Assembly: GCF_000168975.1 (NCBI RefSeq)
Contig: NZ_AAUW01000005.1
Coordinates: 1-64,000, forward strand
Source of the DNA: Roseibium aggregatum IAM 12614
Lineage (GTDB): Bacteria > Pseudomonadota > Alphaproteobacteria > Rhizobiales > Stappiaceae
DNA length: 64,000 nucleotides
Direction of reading: 5' to 3'
A program made the position numbers and the translations under genes. This document shows, in pieces, positions 9,088 to 31,044 of the stretch; within the stretch, counting starts at the first letter, position 1; the number at the start of each line of letters is the position of its first letter. Below the pieces are notes generated by a model that made no database searches, was not told where the DNA came from, and was given only the letters and a program-made list of their open reading frames with translations.

Positions 9088-9141
9088 GACAGAACCGGTT
9101 CTTCGTATCTGCCACTAAACTAGGGTCATTCGCTGGCAACG

Positions 9142-9804: not shown

Positions 9805-9827
9805 CGGTTCTCAAGGGTCTCGCGGTT

Positions 9828-10754: not shown

Positions 10755-10937
10755 GGAAAGGATGGCTGTTTCAGACAGAGTGTCTGGCCAGATTTACTTG
10801 ATTGGCACATAGGCTCTTTGCCCACCGTGGGCAAGGTTCTGAATCTGCCGGCCCCTGTCTGGCCCTTTGCCGCCGGGCCGCGTATAAGCCCGGTAAACCG
10901 ACCTGCCGATAGACCCGAATTTACGCGGAGGAGCCAC

Positions 10938-15722: not shown

Positions 15723-15912
15723 TTTTCTGTCTGATGGGCTTCAGGTGGTCCATCCCGGCAAACCGAAGGCGCGTCAGGAACGGATCGGCTGGTGCTCACG
15801 GCCGGTTTTATTATCCGGACAACGGCTCGAATCTCCGCAAACGTCACCAAACTGTCGCGTCCGTCACGTATCGGAAGGCAGTTTATTGGCGCAGGTGACT
15901 CGGGAGAAAGAC

Positions 15913-17175
15913 ATGGCGCAGAGCACGCTCACCGCATCGAAGAAACGTCTCAAGAATGCGGTTCACCGGTCTGAAGCAACGTCCAAAGACGGCTTTCTGG
16001 AGCGCCTGTTCACATTTGCCTTCAAGGGGCTTGTCTATCCGCAGATCTGGGAAGATCCGGATGTCGACATGAAGGCCCTGCGCCTGACGCCGGACTCCAG
16101 GATGATTGCCATTGCGTCCGGCGGCTGCAATGTCATGTCGTACCTGACGGCAAACCCGGCCGAAATTACCGCAGTCGATCTCAACCGCGCACATGTTGCG
16201 CTGGGCCGCTTGAAGCTGGCGGCCGCCAAGCATCTGCCGAATTACGAGATTTTCTACAGGTTCTTCGGTGAAGCCGACGAAAAGGCCAATGTGGCTGCCT
16301 ATCAGCGCTTCCTGAAGGACAAGCTCGATCCGGAAACGGTCGCCTACTGGGAAGGCCGCGACATGGCCAACTGGGGCCGCAAGCGGATCACGCTGTTCTC
16401 GCGCGATCTCTATCACCACGGCCTGCTGGGCTACTGCATCGGTGCCGGGCACCTGATCGCGAAGCTCTATGGCATTGACCCGAAATACATGGTCAAGACC
16501 AAGTCGCTGGAAGAGCAGCGCAGCTTCTTTGATACCGCGCTGGCGCCGCTGTTCGACAAGCGTCTGGTACGCTGGGCAACATCGAAGAAGATGTCTCTCT
16601 ACGGCCTCGGTATTCCCCCGGCGCAATATGATGCGCTGGTATCTGCCAGTGCCGAGGGCGACATGTCCGCGGTTCTGCGCCAGCGGCTCGAGAAGCTGGC
16701 TTGCGACTTTTCCATGCAGGACAACTATTTTGCCTGGCAGGCCTTCGGCAGGGGCTATGCCCCCGGTGGTCAGGACAGCACAGGTCCGGCAGGGCCCTTG
16801 CCGCCCTATCTGAAGCGGGAACACTTCGAGGAAATCCGTCAGCGTGCCGGCCGTGTCCGGGTGCTCAACCGGAATTTCACCGAGCATCTCCAGTCGGTTC
16901 AGGACGACACGCTCGATGCCTACGTGTTGCTCGACGCTCAGGACTGGATGACCGATCATCAGCTCAACGCTCTCTGGGCCGAAATCACCCGCACCGCCCG
17001 CCCGGGCGCCCGGGTCATCTTCCGCACGGCTGCCGAACCGACCTTGCTGCCGGGCCGCGTCGCCGACCGAATTCTGGATCGCTGGACCTATGAGGAAGAG
17101 GAAAGCCTGGAACTCGGCCGTCAGGACCGTTCTTCCATCTATGGTGGCTTCCACCTTTATGTGTTCAACGGTTAG
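15913..17175 (+). CDS. btaA: BtaA, 3-amino-3-carboxypropyl transferase of betaine lipid synthesis
   Basis: Transfers the aminocarboxypropyl group of S-adenosylmethionine to diacylglycerol, giving diacylglycerylhomoserine at the membrane. 420 residues, a full-length DUF3419/BtaA protein: FKGLVYPQIWEDPDVDMKAL near the N-terminus, IASGGCNVMSYL (SAM-binding), ITAVDLNRAHVALG, and LDAYVLLDAQDWM near the C-terminus. The ATG at 15913 follows GGGAGAAAG. It lies 32 bases before btaB. In other alphaproteobacteria the pair is induced by phosphate starvation so that phospholipids can be replaced; I did not identify a convincing Pho box upstream. Confidence 0.92.
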   Translation: MAQSTLTASKKRLKNAVHRSEATSKDGFLERLFTFAFKGLVYPQIWEDPDVDMKALRLTPDSRMIAIASGGCNVMSYLTANPAEITAVDLNRAHVALGRLKLAAAKHLPNYEIFYRFFGEADEKANVAAYQRFLKDKLDPETVAYWEGRDMANWGRKRITLFSRDLYHHGLLGYCIGAGHLIAKLYGIDPKYMVKTKSLEEQRSFFDTALAPLFDKRLVRWATSKKMSLYGLGIPPAQYDALVSASAEGDMSAVLRQRLEKLACDFSMQDNYFAWQAFGRGYAPGGQDSTGPAGPLPPYLKREHFEEIRQRAGRVRVLNRNFTEHLQSVQDDTLDAYVLLDAQDWMTDHQLNALWAEITRTARPGARVIFRTAAEPTLLPGRVADRILDRWTYEEEESLELGRQDRSSIYGGFHLYVFNG

Positions 17176-17905: not shown

Positions 17906-19411
17906 TCAGGGACATCCCTGCTGGGCCCAGAGCCGCAAGGCATTCTTGAAGGCGCCACCGTAGGGGTGTTCCTTCGCCACGGCGCGGGACTTGTCAGCGA
18001 CATAGGTCTTGGCCTGGTCGCACAGGTTGGCCTGTTCCCAGTGATGGCACGCAGCGCAGGTCTTGTCCTTCCAGACGGCCTCCGGCAGGCCTTCGATCGG
18101 CGGATATTTCGGTGACCCTGTGATCAGTTCCGAAATGCTGCGGCTGGCAATTTCCGGATCCCCCATGGCGAGCGGCGCATTGAACGCGATGACCGCGGGC
18201 GGGCCTTTCTGATCCTGGTCAGTGGAGGGCTGTTGAGCGGCCACAGGCGCCTCTTCCGGCGGCGGCTGATTGGTAACCGGGTCGGTGCTCTGCTCCTTGT
18301 TCAGGATCGTCTGCAGTTCCAGGCGCGCCAGTTCTGTAAACGCCCCGTTTGGATAGGCATCCAGATAGGTCTGATAGGCGCTTGCCGTTCCCTCGCGGCG
18401 CGCTGTCTCGATCATGTCGCGCTCGCTTGTCTGGGGGGCGGCAGGCTCGGAGGCGGGTTGCGACGGAGCCTCTGCCGACACGACAGGCTGTGCCTCTTTC
18501 TCCATCAGCACCGTCAGGAGTTCCCTGGCTTCCCCCGCATAGCGGCTGTCCGGGTGCGCACGCAGGAACAAGAGCACCTGCAAGGGGTCCTGGCTGAGCT
18601 TGACCGTGTCCCAGATCTGCCGAAGCTCGACTTCTTCCGCTGAAGGGGCCTTGGCGGGAACGAACTGAAAATCGACGGTAAGGGAGGACGTATCCCAGGG
18701 CGTCTGCTGGTTGCCGGTATCCTTCAGAACGTCGACCCGAACTTCCCTGAAAAGAGTTTCAACGGACATTCCGGGTGTCGGCAGGTGCCGCGCCAGCGCT
18801 TCTGTGAACGGGCTGTTGCCGCCTGCACCATCAAGGGCAATATCGCCGGGGGCTGTCGAATAGGCCAGGAAGGTGCCTCTGGGGGCCTTCATTTCCGCAA
18901 GGCCGTTGTCGCTCAGGTCCGGGATCGCAGCGAACGGGTTGTTCCGGCAGGCATCCAGAATGACGATATTGGTCCGGTTGCGCGCCGAAAACATCTGCCG
19001 CAGAACGGCCTGGGCCGGCACGCCGACAAGGCTGAGGTCGGCAGCGTCCTGGAGCTCAATGTCGACCGGAAGCAGAAAGTTCGTACCGAAGGACTGCACA
19101 CCGTGGCCGGCATAGTAGAAAAGCCCGGTCGCGTCCTCGCCGGCTGCCCGCAAACGGCTGCCGAACCGTGAGATCGCCGTGATCATTTCGTGCTGGCTGG
19201 AATCCGTGACGAGCGTTACCTCAAAGCCGACCTTGCGCAGCGTGTCGGCCATCAGCTCGGCATCGTTGACCGGATTGTCCAGCGGCGTGACCTCGGTGTA
19301 GTTGCCGTTGCCAACCACCAGCGCCAGTCGCGCTTCCGCCTGCGCCCTGCTCATGAACAGGCCAAGGCTGACTGTCAGCGCCAGAAGAAAACCGATCGCA
19401 GTGCGATGCAT
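17906..19411 (-). CDS. Secreted caspase-family protein with C-terminal CXXCH motif
   Basis: Peptidase C14-like protein, 501 residues from ATG 19411, which leaves a clean signal peptide (residues 1-25, cleavage after RAQA); a TTG at 19435 is an alternative start. The caspase fold spans about 27-250 with catalytic H103 in YYAGHG and C155 in ILDACRNNPF. A Q/P/E-rich, TPR-like segment follows (TAYPNGAFTELA-type repeats). The last 52 residues hold KTCAACHHW, a CXXCH motif at about 452-456, plus two more cysteines. In the periplasm this could bind haem c, or be a disulfide or metal site. It starts 8 bases after the YceI-OmpA gene, so both are probably cotranscribed. Role unknown. Confidence 0.82.
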   Translation of the reverse strand: MHRTAIGFLLALTVSLGLFMSRAQAEARLALVVGNGNYTEVTPLDNPVNDAELMADTLRKVGFEVTLVTDSSQHEMITAISRFGSRLRAAGEDATGLFYYAGHGVQSFGTNFLLPVDIELQDAADLSLVGVPAQAVLRQMFSARNRTNIVILDACRNNPFAAIPDLSDNGLAEMKAPRGTFLAYSTAPGDIALDGAGGNSPFTEALARHLPTPGMSVETLFREVRVDVLKDTGNQQTPWDTSSLTVDFQFVPAKAPSAEEVELRQIWDTVKLSQDPLQVLLFLRAHPDSRYAGEARELLTVLMEKEAQPVVSAEAPSQPASEPAAPQTSERDMIETARREGTASAYQTYLDAYPNGAFTELARLELQTILNKEQSTDPVTNQPPPEEAPVAAQQPSTDQDQKGPPAVIAFNAPLAMGDPEIASRSISELITGSPKYPPIEGLPEAVWKDKTCAACHHWEQANLCDQAKTYVADKSRAVAKEHPYGGAFKNALRLWAQQGCP

Positions 19412-19418
19412 GAGAGGC

Positions 19419-20501
19419 TTATTCGACAACGACAAACTCTATCCGCCGGTTGCGGCGCTTTCCGTCCGCAGATGTGTTTGCTGCGACGGGCCGGCTTTCA
19501 CCATAACCGACGCTCTTGATCCTGCTCTCGGGAATGCTCTTCGAGACAAGATATTGTTTGACCGCACCCGCCCGGCGCTCGGACAGAAGCTGGTTCGATG
19601 TATCGCTGCCGTCACTGTCCGTGTGGCCGCCGACTTCGATAACCAGTCCCGGGCATCTCAAGATGATGTCAACGAGGCTGTTCAACAGCGGTTCGCTTCG
19701 CGGGTCAAGCTGCGAACTGCCACTTGGAAAATAAATATTGTCCGTGCGGGACAGGATCTCGAACCGGCCGGTGCAGGCTTCACTGTCCAGGTTGCCTTCC
19801 GGTTCCAGCGCGGTGCTCGCCGCCGATTGGGAGGCTGTAACCTTTGGTGCCGCATCCGTCGAAACACTCTGAGCCGGTTCAGCGGCTTTGCGCGCGAAGA
19901 CAAAATCGAAGGAAACCGTTGCCGAAGGCACAATCACCACACCGGCGGCTTCCTCGAGCTTCTTGATGCCGCCGCCAAGGTTGAAGTCAGACGCCGCAAC
20001 GGAAACCGGCGCAGTGCTCGAAACGGCAACCAGATCCGCGCTCAGGTAGGTCACGGCAACGTCGGACTGGAAGGATTTGGAAACACCGTGAAGATCCAGC
20101 TTGAAATCCAGCGGTATGATCTTGCGTTTGACGGTCGGAAGGTCGGCCAGAGCCGACGCATCGATTTGCGTGGTGATCACCGCCTCGGGGAATTCGAACG
20201 TCTCGAAGAACAAAAACCGCATGCGCACGTTTCTGAGGTCGATTTTCGTATCGATTGAGTCCAGATAGATGCGAACTCTGGCGTTGCCGGTTTCGTCTAT
20301 GCCGCCTTCAAATTCGGCGAAAGAGCTGGATTCCACGATTGTGAGGTTCTTCACCGACTGGAACCGGAGGGACGATGCGTCCCGCTGCAGGGTCCAACCA
20401 CCCTGGAAGAATTCTTCCGCCGCGGTGGCCGGCGACTGAAACAGGGCAACAGTCATGAGCGCGAGGAACAGGTATTTCCAGGCGAGCCGTGCACAATTCA
20501 T
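19419..20501 (-). CDS. YceI-like / OmpA fusion protein
   Basis: 360 residues with a signal peptide (cleavage near ATA-AEE). Residues about 30-215 look like a YceI lipocalin-type beta barrel (LRFQSVKNLTIVESSSFAEF; DLHGVSKSFQSDVAVTYL), a fold that binds isoprenoid-like lipids. Residues about 240-360 are an OmpA C-terminal peptidoglycan-binding domain: FPSGSSQLDP, GGHTDSDGS, NQLLSERRAGAVKQYL, VGYGESRPV, RRNRRIEF. The protein would sit in the periplasm tethered to the wall. Such fusions exist but are uncommon. The caspase-like gene follows directly, suggesting joint function at the cell envelope. Confidence 0.82.
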   Translation of the reverse strand: MNCARLAWKYLFLALMTVALFQSPATAAEEFFQGGWTLQRDASSLRFQSVKNLTIVESSSFAEFEGGIDETGNARVRIYLDSIDTKIDLRNVRMRFLFFETFEFPEAVITTQIDASALADLPTVKRKIIPLDFKLDLHGVSKSFQSDVAVTYLSADLVAVSSTAPVSVAASDFNLGGGIKKLEEAAGVVIVPSATVSFDFVFARKAAEPAQSVSTDAAPKVTASQSAASTALEPEGNLDSEACTGRFEILSRTDNIYFPSGSSQLDPRSEPLLNSLVDIILRCPGLVIEVGGHTDSDGSDTSNQLLSERRAGAVKQYLVSKSIPESRIKSVGYGESRPVAANTSADGKRRNRRIEFVVVE

Positions 20502-20665: not shown

Positions 20666-21634
20666 TCATCGATAAGTCCGTTTCTCGATCGGTGTCTGCC
20701 GAATCTTTTCAAGCAGCATGTCGAGCAGTGCCTGTTCGGCCCGGTTCAGTTTCGCCTTCGGATTCCAGACCACATGCACGTCGATCTCCGGCAGCGCGTC
20801 ATAGGGCGGTAATTGCCACAAAAGTCCATCGCGGATGTCCCGCTTGGCGACGTGGACGGGCAGGGGGCCGATACCCAGCCCGGCGATGATCATGCGCCGC
20901 ACTTCTTCCAGATTGGCGGAAGTGCCGACGACCCTGTCTTCCAGATCGGCTTCCGCGCGCATCAAGGTGACCGGACGGAGCGCATCTTCCAGCCGGTCGG
21001 TCACGAAACTGACCGAGGACTGGCCCGCAAGATCGGCCTTCGTCAGGTTCGTCTTGCCGAATAGCGGATGGGGTGGGCCGCAGAAAAGGCCGAAGAACTC
21101 ACGGAAAAGGCGCAGATATTCAAGCTTCGGGTTGCGTTCGCGCACCAGGCAGACAGCAAGAGACGCCCTGCGCGAGGTCACGGCCTCCAGCGCGTCCTTG
21201 CTGGCGGACACATTGACCGTCAGCGTTGCCGCAGGATGGCGTTCATGAAAGGCGCGCAAGGTGTCGTCGTAAAGCGGCGAGACCACGTGACTGGCCATGG
21301 CGATCTCGACATGGCCACGGATCTCGTCGGTGACGTCGCGCATCAGCGTACCAAGCCGCAGGATGGATCCCTGGATCTCGATGGCTTCCTTCAGCAGCAG
21401 TTGACCGGCTTCCGTCAGCTCGAACTGGCCCGGCTTGCGGTTGATGAGCTTGCGCCCCAACCGGTCCTCCAGCCGCTTCAGCGCGCTGGAAACGGTCGGT
21501 TGCTTGAGGCGCAGCCGATCCGCCGCCCTCGTCACGCTGCCCGATTGGGCCAGCACGATAAAGGTTCTCAGCAGGTTCCAATCCAGTTCGCGGGCAAGCC
21601 GCTCTGCCTGGATGGGGCGCAATCGCTCAGTCAT
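20666..21634 (-). CDS. LysR-family transcriptional regulator of the divergent amine operon
   Basis: 322 residues. The N-terminal winged helix is clear (LLRTFIVLAQSGSVTRAADR, then LKQPTVSSALKRLEDRLG), followed by a linker helix and the LysR effector-binding domain (HVEIAMASHVVSPLYDDTL; FFGLFCGPPHPLFG). It is transcribed away from the ABC transporter operon starting at 21743. Inverted repeats in the 108-base gap are likely its operator. By the usual LysR logic it should activate the operon with a pathway compound as coinducer and repress itself (inference). Confidence 0.9.
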   Translation of the reverse strand: MTERLRPIQAERLARELDWNLLRTFIVLAQSGSVTRAADRLRLKQPTVSSALKRLEDRLGRKLINRKPGQFELTEAGQLLLKEAIEIQGSILRLGTLMRDVTDEIRGHVEIAMASHVVSPLYDDTLRAFHERHPAATLTVNVSASKDALEAVTSRRASLAVCLVRERNPKLEYLRLFREFFGLFCGPPHPLFGKTNLTKADLAGQSSVSFVTDRLEDALRPVTLMRAEADLEDRVVGTSANLEEVRRMIIAGLGIGPLPVHVAKRDIRDGLLWQLPPYDALPEIDVHVVWNPKAKLNRAEQALLDMLLEKIRQTPIEKRTYR

Positions 21635-21678
21635 TGATCAGATCTATAGTTATAATTTCTACTATCTATTTGATCAAT
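21633..21678. promoter_or_regulatory. Probable LysR operator between regulator and amine operon
   Basis: Two nested inverted repeats: ATTGATCA (21633-21640) with TGATCAAT (21671-21678), and inside them ATAGT-N10-ACTAT (21646-21665). The inner one fits the LysR box style (short dyad with about 10-11 bases between arms). The area is AT-rich against a GC-rich background and lies directly upstream of the regulator start. Confidence 0.6.
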
Positions 21679-21742
21679 AAACACCCTTCTGCGACGCTGA
21701 AGTCAAGCAATTTTGACAAGGCATCTGGCAGGGTTTGAGCGC

Positions 21743-22609
21743 ATGAGCGTCGAGGCGCGGGAAAAACGACAGCCATGGATACTTCTCTCCCCAGCGCTGA
21801 CCGCAGTCGGGTTGCTGCTGTTTGTGCCGCTTGTCTTCATCGTGGTCTATTCCTTCTGGCTGCGCACAGCCACCGGCGCCGACCAGGCGGGCTTTTATCT
21901 GGACAACTGGAACGAGGCACTCACCGATCCCTTCTATCGGGACATCCTGCTCGGCACGCTGCGGATCGCGGCAATTACGACAATTGCCTGCGCCGTCATG
22001 GGCTATCCGGCGGCTTATTTCATCGCCCGCTCGCGTGGCAACAAGGCATTGCTGCTGCTGTTGCTGATGCTGCCCTTCTGGATCAGCTACATCATCCGCA
22101 CCATGTCCTGGATCAACATTCTGGGCGTGTCCGGCGCGGTCAACTGGGCGCTGCTCAATCTTGGCATCGTCTCCGAACCGGTCCAGATGCTCTATAACGA
22201 GCCGACGGTGATCCTGGGCCTCGTGCATTTCCTGCTGCCCTTCATGGTGTTGAACGTCTACGTGGCGCTGGAAGGGATCGATGTATCGCTGGAAGACGCC
22301 GCCTGTTCGCTCGGCTCCACCCGCTGGCAGGCGTTCCGGGAAGTCACCTTGCCGCTGTCCCTGCCGGGGCTGGCCGCGGGCGGCCTGCTCTGCTTCGTGC
22401 TGAGCGCCGGTACCTACATCACGCCGCTGGTTCTGGGCGGGCCGACGGACGCCATGTTCGCCAATCTCGTTTTCGAGGCGATCATTACCCAGCTCAACTG
22501 GCCACTCGGCTCGGCGCTCTCGCTCATGCTGCTCGCCGTCCTCGGCACCCTGGTACTCATCTACAACCACTATCTCGGCATGGGCCAATTGATGAAGGGG
22601 CTGGGCTGA
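21743..22609 (+). CDS. ABC transporter permease, spermidine/putrescine type (PotB-like)
   Basis: First inner-membrane subunit of a polyamine-type importer. 288 residues from ATG 21743 (a TTG at 21713 is a weaker option). Six hydrophobic segments are visible, and the BPD_transp_1 coupling motif EDAACSLGSTRWQAFREVTLP contacts the ATPase. It overlaps the next permease by one base (TGATG). The group PotB-PotC-PotD-PotA imports polyamines or related amino compounds; the catabolic genes downstream suggest an acetylated or amino-substituted substrate. Confidence 0.9.
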   Translation: MSVEAREKRQPWILLSPALTAVGLLLFVPLVFIVVYSFWLRTATGADQAGFYLDNWNEALTDPFYRDILLGTLRIAAITTIACAVMGYPAAYFIARSRGNKALLLLLLMLPFWISYIIRTMSWINILGVSGAVNWALLNLGIVSEPVQMLYNEPTVILGLVHFLLPFMVLNVYVALEGIDVSLEDAACSLGSTRWQAFREVTLPLSLPGLAAGGLLCFVLSAGTYITPLVLGGPTDAMFANLVFEAIITQLNWPLGSALSLMLLAVLGTLVLIYNHYLGMGQLMKGLG

Positions 22610-23394
22610 TGGGGTGGCAACTGATCCGGGCCTATACGCTGCTGGTCTATCTGTTCATGTTTCTGCCGGTCGCGGTGGTGGTGCTGCTCAGCTTCAACGC
22701 CAGCCAGTTCGGCAGCTTTCCGATGACCGGCTTCTCGTTCCGCTGGTTCGTTGAACTGGCCGGCAACGACGCCATCCTGCGGGCGTTCCAGACCTCAATC
22801 ATCCTCGGCGCGCTGACGGCGCTGATCTCCACGACACTCGGCGTTCTGGCAAGCCTTGCCCTGGTGCGCTACGAGGTGCCGGGCCGCAACCTGATCTCCA
22901 CCCTCCTGATTGCCCCCATCCTGGTGCCGGAGGTGGTGCTGGCGGTCGCCTTGCTGCTGTTCCTGAATTTCCTGTCGATCAACAAGAGCTTCTTCCTGCT
23001 GCTGATGGGGCACGTCATCTTCACGCTGCCCTTCGTCATCCTCGTGGTGCAGGCCCGCCTCGTCGGCATTCGCCGCGACTATGAGGAAGCCGCTCTCAGC
23101 CTTGGCGCCAGCCCGGTGCAGGCCTTCTTCCAGATTACGCTGCCGCTGCTGGCGCCTGCTGTCTTCGCCGGCATGTTGTTCGCCTTCACCATCAGCTTTG
23201 ACGACATTACCGGCACCTTGTTCTGGAAGCCGGGCGGGGTCGAAACCGTGCCCACCCAGATCTTTGCCATGCTGCGCAATTCCATCTCTCCGGAGATCAA
23301 CGCCCTCGGCACTGTGATGATTTTCCTTACCGTCGGCCTGCCGCTTATCGGGCTGGCAATTGCCCGGCGGATGGCCATGCAGCGCGGCAGTTAG
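22609..23394 (+). CDS. ABC transporter permease, spermidine/putrescine type (PotC-like)
   Basis: Second inner-membrane subunit, 261 residues, with six hydrophobic segments and the coupling loop EEAALSLGASPVQAFFQITLP. The N-terminal FNASQFGSFPMTGFSFRWF matches PotC-type proteins. Start codon overlaps the stop of the first permease; the binding-protein gene follows after 52 bases. Confidence 0.9.
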   Translation: MGWQLIRAYTLLVYLFMFLPVAVVVLLSFNASQFGSFPMTGFSFRWFVELAGNDAILRAFQTSIILGALTALISTTLGVLASLALVRYEVPGRNLISTLLIAPILVPEVVLAVALLLFLNFLSINKSFFLLLMGHVIFTLPFVILVVQARLVGIRRDYEEAALSLGASPVQAFFQITLPLLAPAVFAGMLFAFTISFDDITGTLFWKPGGVETVPTQIFAMLRNSISPEINALGTVMIFLTVGLPLIGLAIARRMAMQRGS

Positions 23395-23446
23395 AACCGC
23401 GCGATCAAAGCAAGTAAATGACACAAGAACCAGAGTGGAAACCAAG

Positions 23447-24586
23447 ATGGACAATACCAAACGCTATGAGCGTCTGCGCGAACGCTATCTCAACGGCGAT
23501 CTCGACCGCCGCAAGTTCCTTGGCTTGATCGGGGCCGCCGGTCTCGCCTACGGGGTGCAGACACCCTTTGCTCGCCATGCCATGGCTGCAACCGAGGAAG
23601 TTCGCTTCGATGGCTGGGGCGGGGTCGTTTCGGAAGCCTTCCGCAAATATGCCTTCGATCCGTATACCGAAAAGACCGGTATCAAGGTTGTCGACGGAAC
23701 GTTCGGCGGCGGTGACGAATATCTGTCGCGCGTCAAGGCCAGCCAGGAAGGCGAATACAACATCGCGCATCTGTCCGGCGTCTTCGACTATGCGCGCTAC
23801 GTCAATCTCGGGCTGAACTCGACGCTCAACGAGGACAACATCCCGAACCTGAAATACGTGATCCCGAAACTGACGGACGTCTTCCGGGGTGTCACCGACG
23901 GCAAGCTGTCCTGCGTGCCTTATGACTACGGCACCACGGGCATTGCCTATAACCGGAAATACATCTCTGACGATGAAGCCAAGGAGAAGGGCGCGAAGCT
24001 CCTGATCGATGAAGCCTACAAGGGCAAGATCGGCGGTTGGTCCGACTGGCGCACGCGCGTCTGGTACGCATCGCTGCAGACCGACCAGGACCCGAACAAC
24101 GCAACGGATATGGATGCCGTCTGGCAGGCCGTGCGCACCAACCGCGACCTGCTGCTGAAATACTGGCAGTCCGGCGCTGAGCTCATGAGCCTTCTGGCGG
24201 AAGAGGAAATCTACGTCACCGAAGGCTGGTCCGGCCGGATTTATGCGCTGCAGGAGCAGGGCCACGACATCGGTTATATCGATCCGCCCAACGGTTTCGG
24301 CTGGCAGGAATGCCTGTTCGTGATCAAGGGCTCGCCGATGGAAGCCTGTGAAGAGCTGCTCAACTTCATGCTGGCGCCGGAAACCTCCATCGCGGTCGCC
24401 GAAGGCCAGAACTATCCACCGGCGCTCGACCCGACAAAGGTCGACCTCGGCAAGAAGATCCCGACCCTGCCGGCCTTCGACCCGACAGGAACGCTCGACG
24501 GTCTGACCTTCGCCAATCCGGAATACTGGAACAGCCACGAGCAGGACTGGTCCAAGATGTTCGGGCGGATCCAGAAGGGTTACTGA
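23447..24586 (+). CDS. Periplasmic polyamine-type substrate-binding protein (PotD-like), Tat signal
   Basis: Extracellular binding protein of the importer, 379 residues from ATG 23447. The N-terminus holds DRRKFLGLIGAAGLAYG, a twin-arginine signal, so it is probably exported folded through Tat; cleavage near HAMA-ATE. The mature part has the PotD fold: FGGGDEYLSRVKASQEGEYN, SCVPYDYGTTGIAYNRKY, and PPNGFGWQECLFVIKGSP. It follows the permease genes rather than preceding them. A 12-bp hairpin (24616-24642) separates it from the ATPase gene. Confidence 0.9.
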   Translation: MDNTKRYERLRERYLNGDLDRRKFLGLIGAAGLAYGVQTPFARHAMAATEEVRFDGWGGVVSEAFRKYAFDPYTEKTGIKVVDGTFGGGDEYLSRVKASQEGEYNIAHLSGVFDYARYVNLGLNSTLNEDNIPNLKYVIPKLTDVFRGVTDGKLSCVPYDYGTTGIAYNRKYISDDEAKEKGAKLLIDEAYKGKIGGWSDWRTRVWYASLQTDQDPNNATDMDAVWQAVRTNRDLLLKYWQSGAELMSLLAEEEIYVTEGWSGRIYALQEQGHDIGYIDPPNGFGWQECLFVIKGSPMEACEELLNFMLAPETSIAVAEGQNYPPALDPTKVDLGKKIPTLPAFDPTGTLDGLTFANPEYWNSHEQDWSKMFGRIQKGY

Positions 24587-24615
24587 GCCCGGTACGGCCC
24601 CATCACTGACCCAGC

Positions 24616-24642
24616 ACCTTCCGGCAGTTGCTGCCGGAAGGT
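24616..24642 (+). terminator. Hairpin between binding-protein and ATPase genes
   Basis: Perfect 12-bp stem (ACCTTCCGGCAG / CTGCCGGAAGGT) with a TTG loop, followed by CGTCTTCT. It sits 29 bases after the binding-protein stop and may cause partial termination or protect the 3' end of the upstream message. Confidence 0.65.
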
Positions 24643-24672
24643 CGTCTTCTCCCCAGGACCTGGAGAATTTGC

Positions 24673-25758
24673 GTGAGCGCGGTTTCCCTCAAAAATATCG
24701 TCAAGAAGTTCGGCGGCTTCACCGCCGTTCACCGGATGAGCATGGACATCCCGGACGGAAGCTTCGTCACGCTGCTCGGCCCCTCCGGATGCGGCAAGAC
24801 GACGACCCTCAGGATGATCGCCGGTCTGATCGACCCCACCGAAGGCGACATCACCATCAAGGGACAGCGCATCAACGATGTGCCGATCCACAGGCGGAAC
24901 CTCGGTCTCGTCTTTCAGAATTACGCACTGTTCCCGCACAAGACGATTGCCGAAAACGTGGCTTTCGGCCTGAAATACCGCGATATCTCCAAGGCGGATG
25001 CCGCGATGAAGGTGCGCGACGTGCTGGAACTGGTGCAACTGCCCCACGTCAGCGACCGATACCCCAAGCAGCTTTCCGGCGGCCAGCAGCAGCGTATCGC
25101 CCTGGCGCGGGCCATCGTCATCGAACCCGATGTCCTGCTGCTGGACGAGCCGCTGTCCGCGCTCGATGCCAACCTGCGGGAAGACATGCGCGTCGAACTG
25201 AAGCGCATCCAGCACCGGATCGGCATTACCACTGTTTTCGTCACCCATGACCAGTCCGAAGCGCTTGCCATGTCCGACAGGATCGTCGTCATGTCCAACG
25301 GGCGGGTGGAACAGATAGGCACGCCGCAGGAGGTCTACAACACACCTGCAAGCGAGTTCGTCTCGCGCTTCCTGGGCATCTCCAACATTCTGCCTGCCAC
25401 ATGCCAGGCGGTGGACGGGCAGGACCTGTCTCTCGAATTGCCTCACTTCGGCAAGATCAGCATGCCGAGGGAAAAGGCCCCCAACGTGTCGCAACCCGGT
25501 CCTGCACAGCTTGTGATCCGGGCGGAAAAACTTCTGCTGGCGGAAAAATCCGCTCCGGCGGATGATCGCATCGCGCTCGACGGCAAGGTCGAGGCGGTGG
25601 ACTACCAGGGTCAGGCGGCACGGTATTTCGTGCGTGTCGGCGACCAGCAGCTTCAGGTGATCAACATGATCGATCAGCACCCTTTTGAGGAAGGCTCCGA
25701 CGTTTCCGTTCGCTTCCGCCCGCGCGACTGCGCAGCCCTGCCGGGAGCTGCTTCATGA
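24673..25758 (+). CDS. ABC transporter ATPase, spermidine/putrescine type (PotA-like)
   Basis: Cytoplasmic ATPase that drives the importer. GTG start at 24673 with TGGAG upstream gives 361 residues. Motifs: Walker A GPSGCGKTTT, Q-loop VFQNYALFP, signature LSGGQQQRIALARA, Walker B VLLLDEPLSALD, H-loop VTHD. The last 100 residues form the TOBE regulatory domain seen in PotA. Its stop overlaps the ATG of the aminotransferase by four bases, so transport and catabolism are translated together. Confidence 0.92.
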   Translation: MSAVSLKNIVKKFGGFTAVHRMSMDIPDGSFVTLLGPSGCGKTTTLRMIAGLIDPTEGDITIKGQRINDVPIHRRNLGLVFQNYALFPHKTIAENVAFGLKYRDISKADAAMKVRDVLELVQLPHVSDRYPKQLSGGQQQRIALARAIVIEPDVLLLDEPLSALDANLREDMRVELKRIQHRIGITTVFVTHDQSEALAMSDRIVVMSNGRVEQIGTPQEVYNTPASEFVSRFLGISNILPATCQAVDGQDLSLELPHFGKISMPREKAPNVSQPGPAQLVIRAEKLLLAEKSAPADDRIALDGKVEAVDYQGQAARYFVRVGDQQLQVINMIDQHPFEEGSDVSVRFRPRDCAALPGAAS

Positions 25759-27110
25759 GCCGTCCTCAAACCTCTCATCTGTTCTACCAGTCCCGCCAGC
25801 GCCGGCCCGTTCTGGACCAGGCGCGCGGCGTCTACATGTGGGACGTCGACGGCAAGCGCTATCTCGACGGCTCCTCCGGGGCGATGGTCTGCAACATCGG
25901 CCATTCCAACCCGCGCGTGCTCGAGGCAATGCGCAAACAGATGGACAAATCCACTTTCGGGTACCGTCTTCACTTCGAAACCGAACCGGCTGAACTGCTG
26001 GCCGCCAGGACGGCCGCGCTGGCGCCTGAGGGGCTGGAAAAGGTCTTCTTCGTTTCCGGTGGATCGGAAGCGGTGGAAAGCGCCATCAAGCTGGCCCGCC
26101 AGAACGCAATCGCGATCGGCGAGGCTCAGCGCTACAAGATCATCTCGCGCGAACCGAGCTATCACGGCTGCACGCTCGGTGCGCTGGCCCTGACAGGCTA
26201 CGCGCCGCTTACCGCCCCATTCGACCCGATGATGCGGCCGATGCCGAAGATCCCGGCACCGCGTGCCTATCTCGACGGGCTGGACCCGGACGATGAGGCA
26301 ACGGGGCAGCATTATGCCGACATGCTGGAGGCAAAGATCCTGTCCGAAGGCCCGGAAACGATCCTCGCCTTCATCGTCGAACCGGTCGGCGGCGCTTCAA
26401 CCGGTGCGCTTGTGCCCCCCAAAGGTTACATGCAGCGCATCCGCGAGATCTGCACCCGTTACGGCGTCCTGCTGATCCACGACGAGGTCATGACCGGAGG
26501 CGGGCGAACCGGCAAGTTCTTTGCCGGTGAGCACTGGAACGTGGATCCGGATATCCTGGTCATCTCCAAGGGCTTTGCCGCGGGGTATGCACCGCTCGGC
26601 GCCATGATCGCGCATAAGGACATCGTCACCAACGTGCTCGACAATGGCGGTTTCCTGCATGGCTTCACCTATGCCGGCAATCCGCTTGCCTGCTCTGCCG
26701 GCCTTGCGGTGCTGGAAGAGATCGAGCGGGAAAACCTTTGCCAGAACGCGGCTGAGACCGGGGCGCTCCTGAAGCGCGAACTGAAGAAGCTGATGGACCG
26801 TTATTCGATCATCGGCGACGTGCGCGGCGAAGGTCTTCTGCTGGCCTTTGAACTGGTCGAGGACCGGGCAAGCCTGAGACCGCTTGCGAAGGAACTGAAC
26901 GCCTTCAACGAGTTGGTCGATATCGCGTACGAGAACGGCCTCATCATCTATTCCCGCAGGACGCGGGGCGGCTACAGCGGCGATCATTTCCTGATCGCAC
27001 CGCCGATGATCTCGACCCCGGATCATGTTGCCGAGATCATCGAAGGCCTCGACCTTTCTCTCCGCCAGTTCCTCGACAGGATTTCAAGGCAACAGGCCAA
27101 AGCCAGCTGA
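25755..27110 (+). CDS. Class III (omega) aminotransferase
   Basis: PLP-dependent aminotransferase of the acetylornithine/GABA/omega-amino acid class, 451 residues. Key pieces: VFFVSGGSEAVESAIKLAR, SYHGCTLGALALTG, LLIHDEVMTGGGRTGKFF (D binds the PLP ring nitrogen), and the Schiff-base lysine in VISKGFAAGYAPLG. It should remove a terminal amino group from the imported compound or its deacetylated form. Overlaps potA by 4 bases and is followed by the BKACE gene after 10 bases. Confidence 0.9.
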   Translation: MSRPQTSHLFYQSRQRRPVLDQARGVYMWDVDGKRYLDGSSGAMVCNIGHSNPRVLEAMRKQMDKSTFGYRLHFETEPAELLAARTAALAPEGLEKVFFVSGGSEAVESAIKLARQNAIAIGEAQRYKIISREPSYHGCTLGALALTGYAPLTAPFDPMMRPMPKIPAPRAYLDGLDPDDEATGQHYADMLEAKILSEGPETILAFIVEPVGGASTGALVPPKGYMQRIREICTRYGVLLIHDEVMTGGGRTGKFFAGEHWNVDPDILVISKGFAAGYAPLGAMIAHKDIVTNVLDNGGFLHGFTYAGNPLACSAGLAVLEEIERENLCQNAAETGALLKRELKKLMDRYSIIGDVRGEGLLLAFELVEDRASLRPLAKELNAFNELVDIAYENGLIIYSRRTRGGYSGDHFLIAPPMISTPDHVAEIIEGLDLSLRQFLDRISRQQAKAS

Positions 27111-27120
27111 AAATCAAGAC

Positions 27121-28050
27121 ATGACAGACAAGATCATCATCACCTGTGCCGTCACGGGCTCCATTCATACGCCCACCATGTCGCCCCATCTGCCGGTGAC
27201 GCCCGCTGAAATTGCCGGACAGGCCATTGGCGCCGCCGAGGCGGGTGCGGCCATCCTGCATCTGCATGCGCGCAATCCCGAGACCGGTCAGCCGTCGGCC
27301 CGTGAAGCCGATTTCATGGCCTTCCTGCCGGAGATCAAGGCAGGCTGCAGCGCGGTGCTCAATCTGTCCACCGGAGGCAGCGCCATCATGAGCCTGGAGG
27401 ACAGGCTTGCCGGTCCGCTGAAGGCTGAGCCGGAAATGTGCTCTCTCAACATGGGCACCATGAACTTCGCGCTTTATCCGCTGGCCGACCGCTACGACAC
27501 GTGGCTTCACGACTGGGAACAGCCGTTCCTGCGCGGCACGGACGATCTCGTCTTCAAGAACACACCGCGGGACATCGAATTCGTGCTCACCCAGATGGGG
27601 CAGCAGCGCGGCGCGCGCTTCGAGTTCGAATGCTACGACGTCGGACACCTCTACATGCTGCGCCACTTCGCTGACCGCGGGCTCGTCAAACCGCCGTTCT
27701 TCATCCAGTTCGTCTTTGGTGTCCTGGGCGGTATCGGCGCCGATCCGGAGAACCTGCAACACATGAAGCGGATGGCGGACAAGCTTTTCGGCGACGACTA
27801 TATCTTCTCTGTCCTTGCAGCGGGACGACAACAGATCCCCTTTGCGACAATTGCCGCCAGCATGGGCGGGCACGTGCGCGTTGGGCTGGAAGATAATCTC
27901 TACATCGCCAGGGGCGAACTTGCCCGGTCCAACGCAGAGCAGGTCACCAAGATCCGCAAGATTGTCGAAGAACTCGGACGCAAGGTTGCCACACCGGACG
28001 AAGCCAGGCAGATGCTGGGCCTCAAGGGCGCGGGCGGGACGGCCTTCTGA
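27121..28050 (+). CDS. BKACE-family beta-keto acid cleavage enzyme (DUF849)
   Basis: Zinc enzyme related to Kce (3-keto-5-aminohexanoate cleavage): it condenses a beta-keto acid with acetyl-CoA and splits it into acetoacetate and a new acyl-CoA. 309 residues as a TIM barrel. TCAVTGSIHTP at the N-terminus, zinc-binding HLHAR, NLSTGG, FECYDVGHLYML, and GHVRVGLEDN near the C-terminus all match the family. Substrate varies widely in BKACE proteins. Here the neighbouring aminotransferase and amine oxidase suggest a beta-keto acid made from an amino compound. Confidence 0.9.
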   Translation: MTDKIIITCAVTGSIHTPTMSPHLPVTPAEIAGQAIGAAEAGAAILHLHARNPETGQPSAREADFMAFLPEIKAGCSAVLNLSTGGSAIMSLEDRLAGPLKAEPEMCSLNMGTMNFALYPLADRYDTWLHDWEQPFLRGTDDLVFKNTPRDIEFVLTQMGQQRGARFEFECYDVGHLYMLRHFADRGLVKPPFFIQFVFGVLGGIGADPENLQHMKRMADKLFGDDYIFSVLAAGRQQIPFATIAASMGGHVRVGLEDNLYIARGELARSNAEQVTKIRKIVEELGRKVATPDEARQMLGLKGAGGTAF

Positions 28051-28052
28051 TC

Positions 28053-28541
28053 ATGAGTGGCATTACGATCAGGCGGGCAAAGCGGGAGGATGCCGAAAGG
28101 CTTCATGCGGCACTGCTCCAGCTTTCAGCCGATATGGGCGACACCCACGTTGCCAGTCTCGATGATGTGATCCGCCACGGGTTCTCGGAAGCCCCGGCTT
28201 TTTTCGCGCTGCTGGCAGAAAGAAATGCTGACGGCCGGACACTCGGAGTGTTGCAGGCCTCGCCGGTCTTTTCGACCACACGCGGCGGCACCGGTCTCTA
28301 TGTTTCCGACCTCTGGGTCGACAGTGAGGCGCGCGGAGAAGGGCTGGGCCAGCGCCTGCTCGCCGCGAGCCTCGACCTTGCCCCTGAAAGCTGGACACCG
28401 GTCTTTCTGAAACTCGCCGTTTATCACGACAATCCGCATGCACGCCGTTTTTACGAACGGCTCGGTTTTGCGCCTCGGGAAGGCGAAACCGTCTTCGATC
28501 TGCGCGCACCGGCATTCGACAAATTGAGGGACCGCTCATGA
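28053..28541 (+). CDS. GNAT-family N-acetyltransferase
   Basis: 162 residues of the GNAT fold: N-terminal TIRRAKREDAERLHAALLQL, central VSDLWVDSEARGEGLGQRLL (the acetyl-CoA pyrophosphate loop, Q/R-x-x-G-x-G/A), and the C-terminal NPHARRFYERLGFAPREGE. This resembles diamine/polyamine acetyltransferases. Starts 2 bases after the BKACE stop and overlaps the deacetylase gene by 4 bases. An acetyltransferase next to a deacetylase could mark protection of an amine during part of the pathway, or detoxification. Confidence 0.88.
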   Translation: MSGITIRRAKREDAERLHAALLQLSADMGDTHVASLDDVIRHGFSEAPAFFALLAERNADGRTLGVLQASPVFSTTRGGTGLYVSDLWVDSEARGEGLGQRLLAASLDLAPESWTPVFLKLAVYHDNPHARRFYERLGFAPREGETVFDLRAPAFDKLRDRS

Positions 28542-29560
28542 AAGCCATTTTTGACGACCGCCAGTGGGCGCATGATCCCAAGCACTTCATGGCAAATGGA
28601 ACCAGGCTTGCCAATCCGGAGCAGCCAAGGCGCATCGAGGTCCTGACAGCAGGTGCCAAGGCAGCCGGCTGCCGTTTCGAGGTGCCGGACGATCATGGCC
28701 TCGGGCCGATCGCAGCGCTTCATTCGGCTGAATACCTGGTGTTTCTTCAAACGATCCATGACCGCTGGAGCCGGATCGAGGGCGCGTCCGACGAGGTCAT
28801 CCCGAACATTCATCCGGACAGGCGCACGGCAAGTTATCCGCGCTCGGCGGTTGGTCAGGCAGGGTTCCACCAGGCCGATACCAGTTGCCCCATTGCCGCG
28901 GGCACCTGGGAAGCGGCCTATTGGTCCGCTCAAAGCGCAATTCACGGCGCGGATCTCATGGCGGCCGGGGAACAGGTCGCCTATGTGCTGTCGCGCCCGC
29001 CCGGCCACCATGCTTTTGGTGATCTGGCAGGCGGGTTCTGCTTCCTCAACAATTCCGGCATCGTGGCCGAAAGGCTTCTGAAGGCGGGCAAGCGTCCGGC
29101 GATCCTCGATATCGATGTCCACCATGGCAATGGCACGCAAGGCATCTTCTATGAGCGCGGTGACGTTCTCACCGTTTCGCTGCATGCCGATCCGGTGCGG
29201 TTCTATCCGTTCTTCTGGGGACACGGTCATGAGCGCGGCGAGGGTGCCGGTCGAGGCTGCAATCTCAACCTGCCCCTGGCACGCGGCACCGGGGATGACG
29301 AATACCTGAAAGCTCTGGAAACGGCTTTCGACCATATCCGGGCATTCGGCACCGACATTCTTGTTGTTGCCCTGGGTCTTGATGCTTATGAGAAGGATCC
29401 CCTCAAGGGGCTTGCCATCACCACGCCCGGGTTCGGACGGATCGGTGCCGCTATCGCGAAGCTCGGCCTGCCGGTGCTGTTCGTGCAGGAGGGCGGCTAT
29501 CTTTCGGAAGAACTGGGCCAGAACCTCACCAGTTTCCTCAAAGGGTTCCAGGACGCATGA
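28538..29560 (+). CDS. Histone-deacetylase-family amidohydrolase (acetylpolyamine deacetylase type)
   Basis: Zinc amidohydrolase of 340 residues that removes acetyl groups from amines; bacterial members often act on acetylpolyamines. Visible: RPPGHHAFGD (general-base histidine pair), ILDIDVHHGNGTQ and LGLDAYEKDPL (zinc ligands), VQEGGYLSEELG (transition-state tyrosine). The polyamine-type ABC importer upstream makes an N-acetylated amine the likely substrate. ATGA overlaps with neighbours on both sides show tight coupling. Confidence 0.9.
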   Translation: MKAIFDDRQWAHDPKHFMANGTRLANPEQPRRIEVLTAGAKAAGCRFEVPDDHGLGPIAALHSAEYLVFLQTIHDRWSRIEGASDEVIPNIHPDRRTASYPRSAVGQAGFHQADTSCPIAAGTWEAAYWSAQSAIHGADLMAAGEQVAYVLSRPPGHHAFGDLAGGFCFLNNSGIVAERLLKAGKRPAILDIDVHHGNGTQGIFYERGDVLTVSLHADPVRFYPFFWGHGHERGEGAGRGCNLNLPLARGTGDDEYLKALETAFDHIRAFGTDILVVALGLDAYEKDPLKGLAITTPGFGRIGAAIAKLGLPVLFVQEGGYLSEELGQNLTSFLKGFQDA

Positions 29561-30657
29561 TCGAGACATCGGACTTTCTGATCATCGGCGGCGGCATCGC
29601 CGGCACCGGGGCCGCAGCGCGGCTTGCGCCGGAAGCAAAAGTCAGCGTGCTGGAAATGGAAGATGCGCTCGGCCGCCACGCAACCGGCCGCTCTGCCGCC
29701 ATCTTCATCCGCAACTACGGCAATGCCACCTTACGGGCCTTGAATGCCGCTTCCGAACCGGTTCTGAAGAACCCGGAAGGAATTTCCGACGAAAGCCTGC
29801 TGTCGCCCCGGGGTGAGATGCTGATTGCGACCGAGGACGAACTGGACGCGTTCAAGGCCTATCTGGACGGCGGAGACGGCATGGAAGTCCTGACGGCGGA
29901 CGAAGCCGTCGCCCTGTTTCCATTGCTGCGCAAGGAGAGGATTGCCGCTGCCGCCATCGAGTGGGACGCACAGGATATCGACGTCGACAGGCTGTTGCAG
30001 GGCTTTGCCCGGTTTGCACGCAAGGCCGGTGCGCGCTTCGTTACCGAAGCACCGGCGCAGAGCATTCTCAGGAGCGGTGACAAGTGGCGTGTCGAAACGC
30101 CCAAAGGCGTGTTTGAGGCCCCGGTCCTCATTAATGCCGCCGGAGCCTGGGCCGATCAGATCGCGGATCTGGCAGGCGTCCGCAAGATCGGCCTCGTGCC
30201 CATGCGCCGCTCGGCCGCCATCGTGCCGCCACCGGACGGCGTCGATGTCACCAAATGGCCGCTCGTCGCCAGTGCGTCGGAGCAATGGTACGCCAAGCCG
30301 GATGCGGGAAAGTTCATGGTCTCGCCCGCCGACGAGGACCCTGTCGAACCGCACGATGCCTGGGCCGACGACATGGTTCTGGCCGAAGGGCTGCACCGCT
30401 TTGAGCAGGCCGTGACCATGCCCGTCACGCGCGTTGAGCGGAACTGGGCGGGCTTGCGCAGCTTCGTTGCGGACCGCACTCCTGTGGTTGGTTTCGCACC
30501 GGACGCGGAAGGGTTTTTCTGGCTTGCCGGTCAGGGCGGCTACGGCGTACAAACGGCACCGGCGCTGTCCCGGCTCGTTGCGGATCTTTGCCTCAAACAC
30601 CCGAGCGAGCTGCCCGAAAAGGTCGTGACCGCTCTCGATCCCGCCCGCTTGTTCTGA
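29557..30657 (+). CDS. FAD-dependent amine/D-amino acid oxidase-like protein
   Basis: DAO-family flavoprotein, 366 residues. FAD-binding dinucleotide fold at the N-terminus (DFLIIGGGIAGTGAA), followed by GRHATGRSAAIFIRNYGN; later VLINAAGAWADQIADLAG, and the C-terminal FAD site FFWLAGQGGYGVQTAPAL. It would oxidise a secondary amine or amino acid to an imine. The RidA gene 36 bases downstream could speed imine hydrolysis. Overlaps the deacetylase gene by 4 bases. Confidence 0.88.
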   Translation: MIETSDFLIIGGGIAGTGAAARLAPEAKVSVLEMEDALGRHATGRSAAIFIRNYGNATLRALNAASEPVLKNPEGISDESLLSPRGEMLIATEDELDAFKAYLDGGDGMEVLTADEAVALFPLLRKERIAAAAIEWDAQDIDVDRLLQGFARFARKAGARFVTEAPAQSILRSGDKWRVETPKGVFEAPVLINAAGAWADQIADLAGVRKIGLVPMRRSAAIVPPPDGVDVTKWPLVASASEQWYAKPDAGKFMVSPADEDPVEPHDAWADDMVLAEGLHRFEQAVTMPVTRVERNWAGLRSFVADRTPVVGFAPDAEGFFWLAGQGGYGVQTAPALSRLVADLCLKHPSELPEKVVTALDPARLF

Positions 30658-30693
30658 GCGGGCGTCTCTTTCAAAACAAGAAGGAATTCAAAC

Positions 30694-31044
30694 ATGTCCG
30701 ACATCAAACGGCTGGAAGTTGGCCCGCGCATGAGCCAGGCTGTCATCCATGGCGGTCTCGTCTATCTCGCTGGCCAGGTCGGTAATCCGGGCGACACTGT
30801 CACCAACCAGACCCAGACCATCCTGGAACGGATCGATGCTCTTCTGGCGCAGGCCGGAAGCGACAAGAGCCGCATTCTTCAGACGACCATCTGGATGGAC
30901 GACATGAAGGACTTTGCCGAGATGAACAAGGTCTGGGACGCCTGGGTGGACCCGGCCAATCCGTCGGCACGCGCAACCGGTGAAGCCAAGCTGGCAGCCC
31001 CGGAATACAAGGTCGAGATCATCGTCATCGCGGCGCTCGCTTAA
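30694..31044 (+). CDS. RidA-family protein (enamine/imine deaminase)
   Basis: 116 residues, typical RidA size and pattern: HGGLVYLAGQVGNPGDTV, QTQTILERIDALLAQAGSDK, ILQTTIWMDDMKDFAEMN, and the C-terminal PSARATGEAKLAAPEYKVEI with its conserved arginine-containing segment. It hydrolyses reactive imines, here probably products of the FAD enzyme. Last gene of the operon; REP-like repeats follow. Confidence 0.9.
   Translation: MSDIKRLEVGPRMSQAVIHGGLVYLAGQVGNPGDTVTNQTQTILERIDALLAQAGSDKSRILQTTIWMDDMKDFAEMNKVWDAWVDPANPSARATGEAKLAAPEYKVEIIVIAALA

Follow-up and report, generated by a model that had tools for sequence, protein, structure and literature searches.

A candidate operon of Roseibium aggregatum for the degradation of beta-lysine or N6-acetyl-beta-lysine by transient N-acetylation

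Which compound is taken up and degraded by the products of a ten-gene operon of Roseibium aggregatum IAM 12614, and why does this operon encode both an acetyltransferase and a deacetylase? The window (the whole stretch of DNA analysed; 64,000 nucleotides, positions 1 to 64,000 of contig NZ_AAUW01000005.1) contains a LysR gene opposite ten co-directional genes. The first-pass annotation had described a LysR regulator facing an operon of these protein families, and profile matches and open reading frames confirmed all eleven genes, in position as well as in family. The genes and one intergenic hairpin are listed here; loci refer to the 60 loci of the conservation survey below.

20666..21634, minus strand: divergent LysR-family regulator (PF03466 109.6 bits, PF00126 75.2 bits; in 58/60 loci)
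21743..22609, plus strand: ABC permease 1, PotB-like (PF00528; PotB model 194.5 bits, below the cut-off of 348)
22609..23394, plus strand: ABC permease 2, PotC-like (PF00528; PotC model 206.8 bits, cut-off 326; overlaps permease 1)
23447..24586, plus strand: substrate-binding protein, distantly PotD-like (PF13416 89.1 bits; PotD model 42.6 bits, cut-off 582)
24587..24672, plus strand: intergenic hairpin between binding protein and ATPase (RNA fold -34.9 kcal/mol, z -2.66; equalled by 1 of 200 shuffles)
24673..25758, plus strand: ABC ATPase, PotA-like, GTG start (TIGR01187 potA subfamily 360.3 bits, above the cut-off of 355.6)
25755..27110, plus strand: class III aminotransferase (AT3), proposed N6-acetyl-beta-lysine transaminase (PF00202 344.2 bits; NF005685 451 bits, below the cut-off of 485; 60/60 loci)
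27121..28050, plus strand: BKACE, proposed to cleave 3-keto-6-acetamidohexanoate with acetyl-CoA (PF05853 371.9 bits; NF053538 506.9 bits, above the cut-off of 430; 57/60 loci)
28053..28541, plus strand: GNAT, proposed omega-amine (N6) acetyltransferase
28538..29560, plus strand: HDAC-fold amidohydrolase of the acetylpolyamine type, proposed 4-acetamidobutyryl(-CoA) deacetylase (PF00850 227 bits)
29557..30657, plus strand: FAD enzyme, D-arginine dehydrogenase (DauA)-like, optional (PF01266 186.6 bits; 34/60 loci)
30694..31044, plus strand: RidA-like imine deaminase, optional (PF01042 93.9 bits; TIGR00004 64.7 bits, below the cut-off of 106.25; 23/60 loci)

Three of the four ATGA overlaps reported earlier are indeed ATGA (ATPase/AT3 at 25755, GNAT/HDAC at 28538 and HDAC/FAD enzyme at 29557); the fourth, between the two permease genes at 22609, is TGATG. 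The other junctions are gaps of 2 nt (BKACE-GNAT), 10 nt (AT3-BKACE), 36 nt (FAD enzyme-RidA), 52 nt (permease 2-binding protein) and 86 nt (binding protein-ATPase, with the hairpin inside). The start of permease 1 is the ATG picked by our script; an alternative TTG start lies at 21713.

Conservation was surveyed in 80 loci retrieved by means of the HDAC-type protein. Counts were made in the 60 loci with at least 7.5 kb before and at least 3.2 kb after the HDAC gene, while the 20 truncated at contig ends were excluded. Gene presence, here and in the 21 genomes described below, was called by identity thresholds that we set in the scripts, and the FAD enzyme and RidA were counted within 8 kb around the HDAC gene. 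The genes were not usually separate, and the earlier claim of one conserved unit stands: AT3 and an ABC transporter were present in all 60 loci, LysR in 58, BKACE in 57, GNAT in 46, the FAD enzyme in 34 and RidA in 23. GNAT was missing from 14 loci, and in three (L044, L048, L073) no cleavage module adjoined AT3, their genomes holding distant BKACEs only. One of the excluded loci (L037) speaks against linkage, as its 10 kb upstream contain neither AT3 nor BKACE and a BKACE fragment lies at a contig end elsewhere in the genome. The ten-gene set is one version of a modular pathway: the complete set of the window (Pot transporter scored via binding protein and permease 2) was found in 17 of the 60 loci. 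Among HDAC-type relatives at 51-59% identity the cluster was present in 2 of 13 loci read, and in locus L122 an HDAC-FAD pair occurs without AT3 or BKACE. None of the 18 relatives at 44-48% identity (L142-L159) lies next to BKACE. A Phaeobacter locus (L119, AT3 46%) was rejected as a cluster member, being a paralogue in another context.

In a sample not selected by HDAC, AT3 matches were found in 23 of 398 genomes (four best first-look candidates scored per genome), 21 of them at an identity of at least 54%. Two were dropped: G280 (46%), with none of the partner genes, and G174 (49%), with CoA-transferase, thiolase and the HDAC type. AT3 was accompanied by a 3-oxoacid cleavage module in 19 of the 21 genomes (BKACE in 17, CoA-transferase plus thiolase in 2), by a deacylase in 20 (HDAC type in 17, ArgE type alone in 3) and by GNAT in 16. 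No cleavage module adjoining AT3 was found in G171 and G055, no deacylase in G321 and no GNAT in five of the genomes; G262 and G071 were read as 4-kb loci alone, and G123 was assumed to be interrupted at a contig boundary.

The exchange of parts between clusters indicates what the core reactions may be. CoA-transferase A/B and thiolase replace BKACE on plasmid CP081101.1 and in G238, G386 and G796, the last belonging to the family of R. aggregatum. Both solutions act on 3-oxo acids, so that AT3 most likely converts the imported amino acid to a 3-oxo acid, as judged from these gene families. An ArgE/DapE deacylase occurs without the HDAC type in G238, G032 and G386 (3/21 genomes) and on CP081101.1, which makes N-deacylation a probable step of the route. 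GNAT is found with either deacylase type (with the ArgE type in G238 and G032), in keeping with an acetyl group that is attached and taken off again later; for the GNAT/deacetylase pair, the most plausible reading is that a second amine is capped temporarily with acetyl. The first-pass annotation had placed deacetylation first, an order that does not account for GNAT. In the position of the Pot-type transporter, 11 of the 60 loci carry an amino-acid ABC transporter (SBP_bac_3 by Pfam in L062) alongside the same enzymes, the other 49 being of the Pot type, and the polyamine-type substrate proposed earlier is not supported in view of this exchange. The window's own transporter reached none of the Pot equivalog cut-offs (PotB, PotC and PotD as listed; PotA equivalog 362.1 bits, cut-off 482), and the broad potA subfamily model was the sole Pot model passed. 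Its binding protein has 4gl0 and 7xjm as nearest PDB entries (E 5e-13 to 8e-13).

Our preferred reading, to which we assign a probability of about 0.5, is that the operon imports and degrades beta-lysine (3,6-diaminohexanoate) or N6-acetyl-beta-lysine by transient N-acetylation. The general scheme, in which an amino acid with a second amine receives a temporary acetyl cap and is cleaved as a 3-oxo acid, is considerably safer, and we regard it as likely. Gene content, synteny, the interchange of parts and the position of AT3 orthologues beside genes for 3-oxoacid cleavage and N-deacylation were observed directly; the substrate, the order of capping and uncapping and the role of the FAD enzyme we infer. 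After ABC import of either compound, GNAT would acetylate the distal amine, a step unnecessary if the acetylated solute is imported; the cap would keep the later ketone from ring closure with that amine. AT3 would then take off the 3-amine to give 3-keto-6-acetamidohexanoate, which BKACE and acetyl-CoA would convert to 4-acetamidobutyryl-CoA and acetoacetate. Finally, the HDAC-fold enzyme would remove the acetyl group, yielding GABA directly or via the CoA ester. The type of route suggested earlier (import, deacetylation, transamination, beta-keto cleavage) is supported, while its substrate class and its deacetylation-first order are probably wrong.

The same chemistry has reportedly been described by Barker and co-workers (1979-1981) in Pseudomonas, where beta-lysine is converted via N6-acetyl-beta-lysine, 3-keto-6-acetamidohexanoate and 4-acetamidobutyryl-CoA to GABA. 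To our knowledge that route consists of enzyme activities without genes, its 4-acetamidobutyryl-CoA deacetylase (EC 3.5.1.51) included. N6-acetylation, 3-transamination, cleavage of 3-keto-6-acetamidohexanoate and the EC 3.5.1.51 deacetylation would be common to both; what differs is that window-type clusters cleave by BKACE or by CoA-transferase and thiolase, and deacetylate with an HDAC-fold or ArgE/DapE enzyme. The first-pass annotation knew of no described pathway with exactly this gene set; the chemistry does match the route of Barker and co-workers, and an identical operon was not found in the portions seen of the openly licensed literature searched. No lysine 2,3-aminomutase scored over the cut-off of 525.4 bits in 19 genomes (nine match at 302-339 bits, the window's genome having no match), so beta-lysine would have to be external. 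N-acetyl-beta-lysine is an established compatible solute, according to the available part of PMC2412884.

The individual enzymes were compared with characterised relatives. SSAT and thialysine acetyltransferase came closest to the GNAT model; plant enzymes of the ornithine/lysine type were also among the matches. For BKACE, the score for the lysine-fermentation enzyme Kce (NF052387) was 254.6 bits, below the cut-off of 382. At the position of a Glu in the lysine-fermentation enzyme 2y7d, which we take to bind the amine, 78 of 87 BKACE orthologues have I, 8 have V and 1 has a gap (position matched by eye); a neutral, acetylated side chain would fit such a pocket. The five best PDB sequences for the HDAC-type protein are acetylpolyamine amidohydrolases (one a mutant of another), and its metal and catalytic residues are kept: H157, H158, D193, H195 and D282 in 93/93 orthologues and Y321 in 92/93, with one gap. 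In the M. ramosa enzyme, E106 and E117 are presumably the acidic residues facing the polyamine. The E106 position holds V, T, A, I or S in all 93 orthologues, whereas the alignment at E117 is ambiguous and the nearby D114 is invariant. Only 3 of 151 members of the wider family are acidic at the E106 position (some genomes occurring twice in that set). Loss of the polyamine-binding acids as proof against polyamines was rejected, since it is clear only at the E106 position and common to the wider family; it was kept as a weak argument. According to the part of PMC4784309 available, two enzymes of the acetylpolyamine type deacetylate acetylputrescine and acetylcadaverine. The acetamidoalkyl end of these compounds resembles 4-acetamidobutyrate.

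Clusters in a second class of Pseudomonadota, presumably Gammaproteobacteria, bear on the end product. Of 274 genomes searched in that class, the starting genome alone matched; in its family, 11 of 121 genomes did, at 12 places. Eight places were read (L179, L186-L192; G713, G715, G730 and G745 were left out): CoA-transferase was present in all eight, thiolase in six and another GNAT in L187, L189, L190 and L192. A gabT gene borders four of the eight, with TIGR00700 over its cut-off in all three scored, and gabD was scored in L187. The four gabT-bordered genomes belong to one genus, and G715 carries an APAH-type HDAC, gabT and gabD at the same site without the cluster, so that the adjacency counts as a single event, one insertion or one loss, and is weak; in G070, gabT and gabD lie elsewhere. 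With G715 and G070 as control genomes the adjacency was rejected as proof of a GABA product.

Other substrates were weighed against this background. From the swaps, a 3-oxo acid and a deacylation step follow, but the carbon chain of the substrate does not; the same logic of acetylation, transamination, cleavage and deacetylation could apply to a different beta-amino acid that also bears a second amino group, such as 3,5-diaminohexanoate or beta-ornithine. BKACE falls in a curated family (NF053538) named for 3,5-dioxohexanoate (3,5-dioxohexanoate:acetyl-CoA acetone transferase), which we counted against the beta-lysine reading and for this alternative, since this C6 compound, with its oxo group at C5, is like 5-acetamido-3-oxohexanoate. 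The gabT/gabD genes beside four clusters hint weakly at GABA instead, and we consider this alternative rather unlikely. We find improbable a route in which deacetylation directly follows the uptake of an N-acetylated amine or polyamine and is itself followed by transamination or oxidation, RidA hydrolysis and BKACE cleavage. Such a route would suit the kinship of the HDAC-type enzyme, the prevalence of Pot-type transporters and the loci lacking GNAT, but no route that turns polyamines into a beta-keto acid is known to us, GNAT is left without explanation, and the amino-acid transporters and the ArgE-type and CoA-transferase/thiolase substitutes speak against it. The non-acidic E106 position adds little, given D114 and the wider family.

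The FAD enzyme raises a further possibility, namely that the substrate is a D/L-alpha-amino acid resembling lysine or arginine, on which the DauA-like enzyme or a racemase would act first. The nearest PDB relative of the FAD enzyme is by far DauA (293.8 bits; next kind 79.2), with which it aligns near full length. Six of seven residues that we take to form the DauA active site (H48, Y53, E87, R222, Y249, R305, Q336; positions counted by eye) are kept in the window protein, H48 being replaced by I, and E87 is kept in 42 of 47 orthologues. An alanine-racemase-family gene occurs in 6 of the 60 loci, never together with the FAD enzyme. The FAD enzyme appears to retain residues for a cationic D-alpha-amino acid, and beta-lysine explains neither these nor the racemase simply. 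However, with the FAD enzyme missing from 26 loci and the racemase from 54, neither is core, and alpha-keto acids are not substrates of BKACE or of 3-oxoacid CoA-transferase and thiolase; we regard this possibility as very improbable. Oxidation to an imine followed by RidA, a step of the earlier scheme, would be a side branch outside the core, as both the FAD enzyme (34/60) and RidA (23/60) are optional. Under the beta-lysine reading the DauA-like enzyme and RidA would provide an additional entry point that most likely serves the other stereoisomer.

Known systems share single steps with the proposed pathway. In lysine fermentation, according to the part of PMC3149608 available, Kce cleaves a C6 3-keto acid with acetyl-CoA as a BKACE-family enzyme. 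The 5-amine stays free in that system, and the Glu of its enzyme is replaced by I or V in the BKACE orthologues. The deoxyribonate catabolic operon, as far as described in the available part of PMC6365646, uses BKACE to cleave a 3-keto acid aerobically, with acetoacetate handled by other genes, but its substrate is a sugar acid, an SDR dehydrogenase replaces the aminotransferase, and acetylation is absent. PA0321 and PA1409 of Pseudomonas aeruginosa are HDAC-fold amidohydrolases that deacetylate a linear omega-acetamido chain; there the substrate is a polyamine, no partner acetyltransferase was known at the time, and BKACE is not mentioned in the excerpt (PMC4784309).

Somewhat more tentatively than the substrate itself, at slightly less than even odds, we propose a modular pathway of Proteobacteria for beta-lysine and N6-acetyl-beta-lysine, with an acetyl cap, two unrelated cleavage solutions and two unrelated deacylase folds, in which the HDAC-fold enzyme would be the missing EC 3.5.1.51 and which would link a methanogen and halophile osmolyte to aerobic recycling. 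The pathway is directly testable with four small enzymes. If true, it would supply the genes of a bacterial pathway so far described through its enzyme activities, give a physiological substrate to an HDAC-fold subfamily currently annotated as histone deacetylase family protein, explain a BKACE subfamily and offer a marker by which to follow how an osmolyte of archaea and bacteria is recycled.

Opposite a LysR gene, the window carries all ten genes of the families named in the first-pass annotation, the whole spanning 20666-31044:

20666-21634, minus strand: LysR gene, facing ten plus-strand genes
run ending at 31044, plus strand: two ABC permeases, binding protein, ABC ATPase, class III aminotransferase (AT3), beta-keto acid cleavage enzyme (BKACE), GNAT acetyltransferase, HDAC-fold amidohydrolase, DAO-family FAD enzyme and RidA homologue

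Instead of the four ATGA overlaps reported before, three (25755, 28538 and 29557) and one TGATG (22609) were counted; the remaining gaps are 2, 10, 36, 52 and 86 nt. The longest of these (24587-24672), between the binding-protein and ATPase genes, forms a hairpin (RNA fold, z -2.66), which perhaps stabilises the upstream message. The closest named locus is that of Stappia sp. BW2, with an HDAC-type protein 96% identical. Just past the LysR gene, on the minus strand, a Peptidase_C14 caspase-fold protein adjoins a YceI + OmpA-domain protein (17906-19411 and 19419-20501). Elsewhere in the window are a multihaem cytochrome and a DUF3419 protein adjoining a Cache-domain chemoreceptor (36704-38659, 15745-17175 and 13991-15679). 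The same genome holds a second BKACE (G000:C27:42458-43372), 60% identical to that of the operon.

The operon is real and conserved. A scan with the HDAC-type protein, using one genome per species, yielded 80 loci (69-96% identity); counts were made on the 60 with sufficient flank on both sides, and the other 20 were excluded. AT3 was present in 60/60, LysR in 58, BKACE in 57 and GNAT in 46. All 60 had an ABC transporter, which was of the polyamine (Pot) type in 49 and of the polar-amino-acid type in 11. The FAD enzyme (34/60) and RidA (23/60) were less constant, and the full gene set of the window occurred in 17 loci. Minor genes were of the alanine-racemase family (6), M20 amidohydrolases (5) and the creatininase family (3). 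At L037, one of the excluded loci, neither AT3 nor BKACE was found across 10 kb upstream. HDAC-type relatives stood alone at L122 and at 11 of 13 loci with 51-59% identity. At L122 (genome G339, 8769-10897) the HDAC-type gene is paired with an FAD gene in the absence of AT3, BKACE and GNAT; a different ABC system, a SnoaL-like gene and an Amidohydro_2 gene lie nearby.

As a sample not picked via the HDAC-type protein, 398 Pseudomonadota genomes were searched for AT3. It was matched in 23, in 21 of them with at least 54% identity. Adjoining AT3 in these 21 genomes were BKACE (17), CoA-transferase A/B with thiolase (2) or neither (2); the deacylase was of the HDAC type in 17 and ArgE/DapE alone in three, with none in one, and GNAT was present in 16. 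Of the weaker matches, G280 (46%) lacked any partner gene and G174 (49%) had CoA-transferase, thiolase and an HDAC-type gene. Within the window's family, 30 of 87 genomes contained AT3. No cleavage module was found beside AT3 at five loci (L044, L048, L073, L181 and L182), and no deacylase at one (L174).

The replacements are more informative than the fixed gene set. Downstream of AT3 on the roseobacter plasmid CP081101.1 come 3-oxoacid CoA-transferase A and B (exceeding the cut-offs of TIGR02429 and TIGR02428), an ArgE/DapE deacylase and a thiolase; neither BKACE nor an HDAC-type gene was found at this locus. The same replacements occur in genomes G238, G386 and G796, the last from the window's own family, and G032 retains BKACE and GNAT with ArgE in place of HDAC. 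Eight loci were read in another class, presumably Gammaproteobacteria: all have AT3 (47-50%) and CoA-transferase, six have thiolase, and the deacylase within the cluster is ArgE in five and HDAC-type in three. Both BKACE and the unrelated pair CoA-transferase/thiolase dismantle 3-oxo acids; the HDAC type and ArgE have unrelated folds and both strip an N-acyl group. These two exchanges indicate that a 3-oxo acid is very probably the product of AT3 and that N-deacylation belongs to the route. At the 11 loci and at plasmid loci, an ABC transporter for polar amino acids takes the place of the Pot type, so that the imported compound is probably an amino acid. The pathway class proposed at first stands; its deacetylation-first order and its polyamine-type substrate class are probably wrong.

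The FAD enzyme is nearest to D-arginine dehydrogenase and retains six of seven active-site residues named for that enzyme. It never co-occurs with the racemase-family gene (34/60 and 6/60, numbers that are small and lineage-linked). On the simplest reading, the FAD enzyme or racemase would handle the other stereoisomer and RidA would hydrolyse the imine. In eight genomes a DMF-amidase beta-subunit-like gene (PF20254) lies immediately 5' of AT3, in the window's order (L123, L125, L126, L178 and L181-L184); other loci carry a gene of the creatininase family, or the racemase together with an M20 amidohydrolase. These accessory hydrolases look like alternative openers of amide-bound substrate forms.

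Beta-lysine breakdown in Barker's Pseudomonas is the known case of a route with this logic of 3-oxo acid formation and deacylation. There, N6-acetyl-beta-lysine is reportedly transaminated to 3-keto-6-acetamidohexanoate and split to give 4-acetamidobutyryl-CoA, which is deacetylated en route to GABA. In four genomes of one genus in the other class (L187, L189, L190 and L192) the cluster lies between an APAH-type HDAC gene and gabT, which it adjoins; in L187 gabD comes next. Since in G715 (L199) the corresponding site is free of the cluster, this adjacency counts as a single event and is a weak pointer to GABA. N-acetyl-beta-lysine is itself described as a recognised compatible solute (PMC2412884). 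No lysine 2,3-aminomutase over the cut-off was found in 19 genomes, so the substrate would be external, in agreement with the transporter at all 60 loci. The AT3 loci that lack a cleavage module or a deacylase, and the HDAC-type relatives found on their own, speak against the beta-lysine reading. We consider it likely that the operon handles an amino acid with a second amine, by way of a temporary acetyl cap and 3-oxo acid cleavage; the best specific reading, with a probability of about 0.5, is that it would degrade beta-lysine or N6-acetyl-beta-lysine through transient acetylation.
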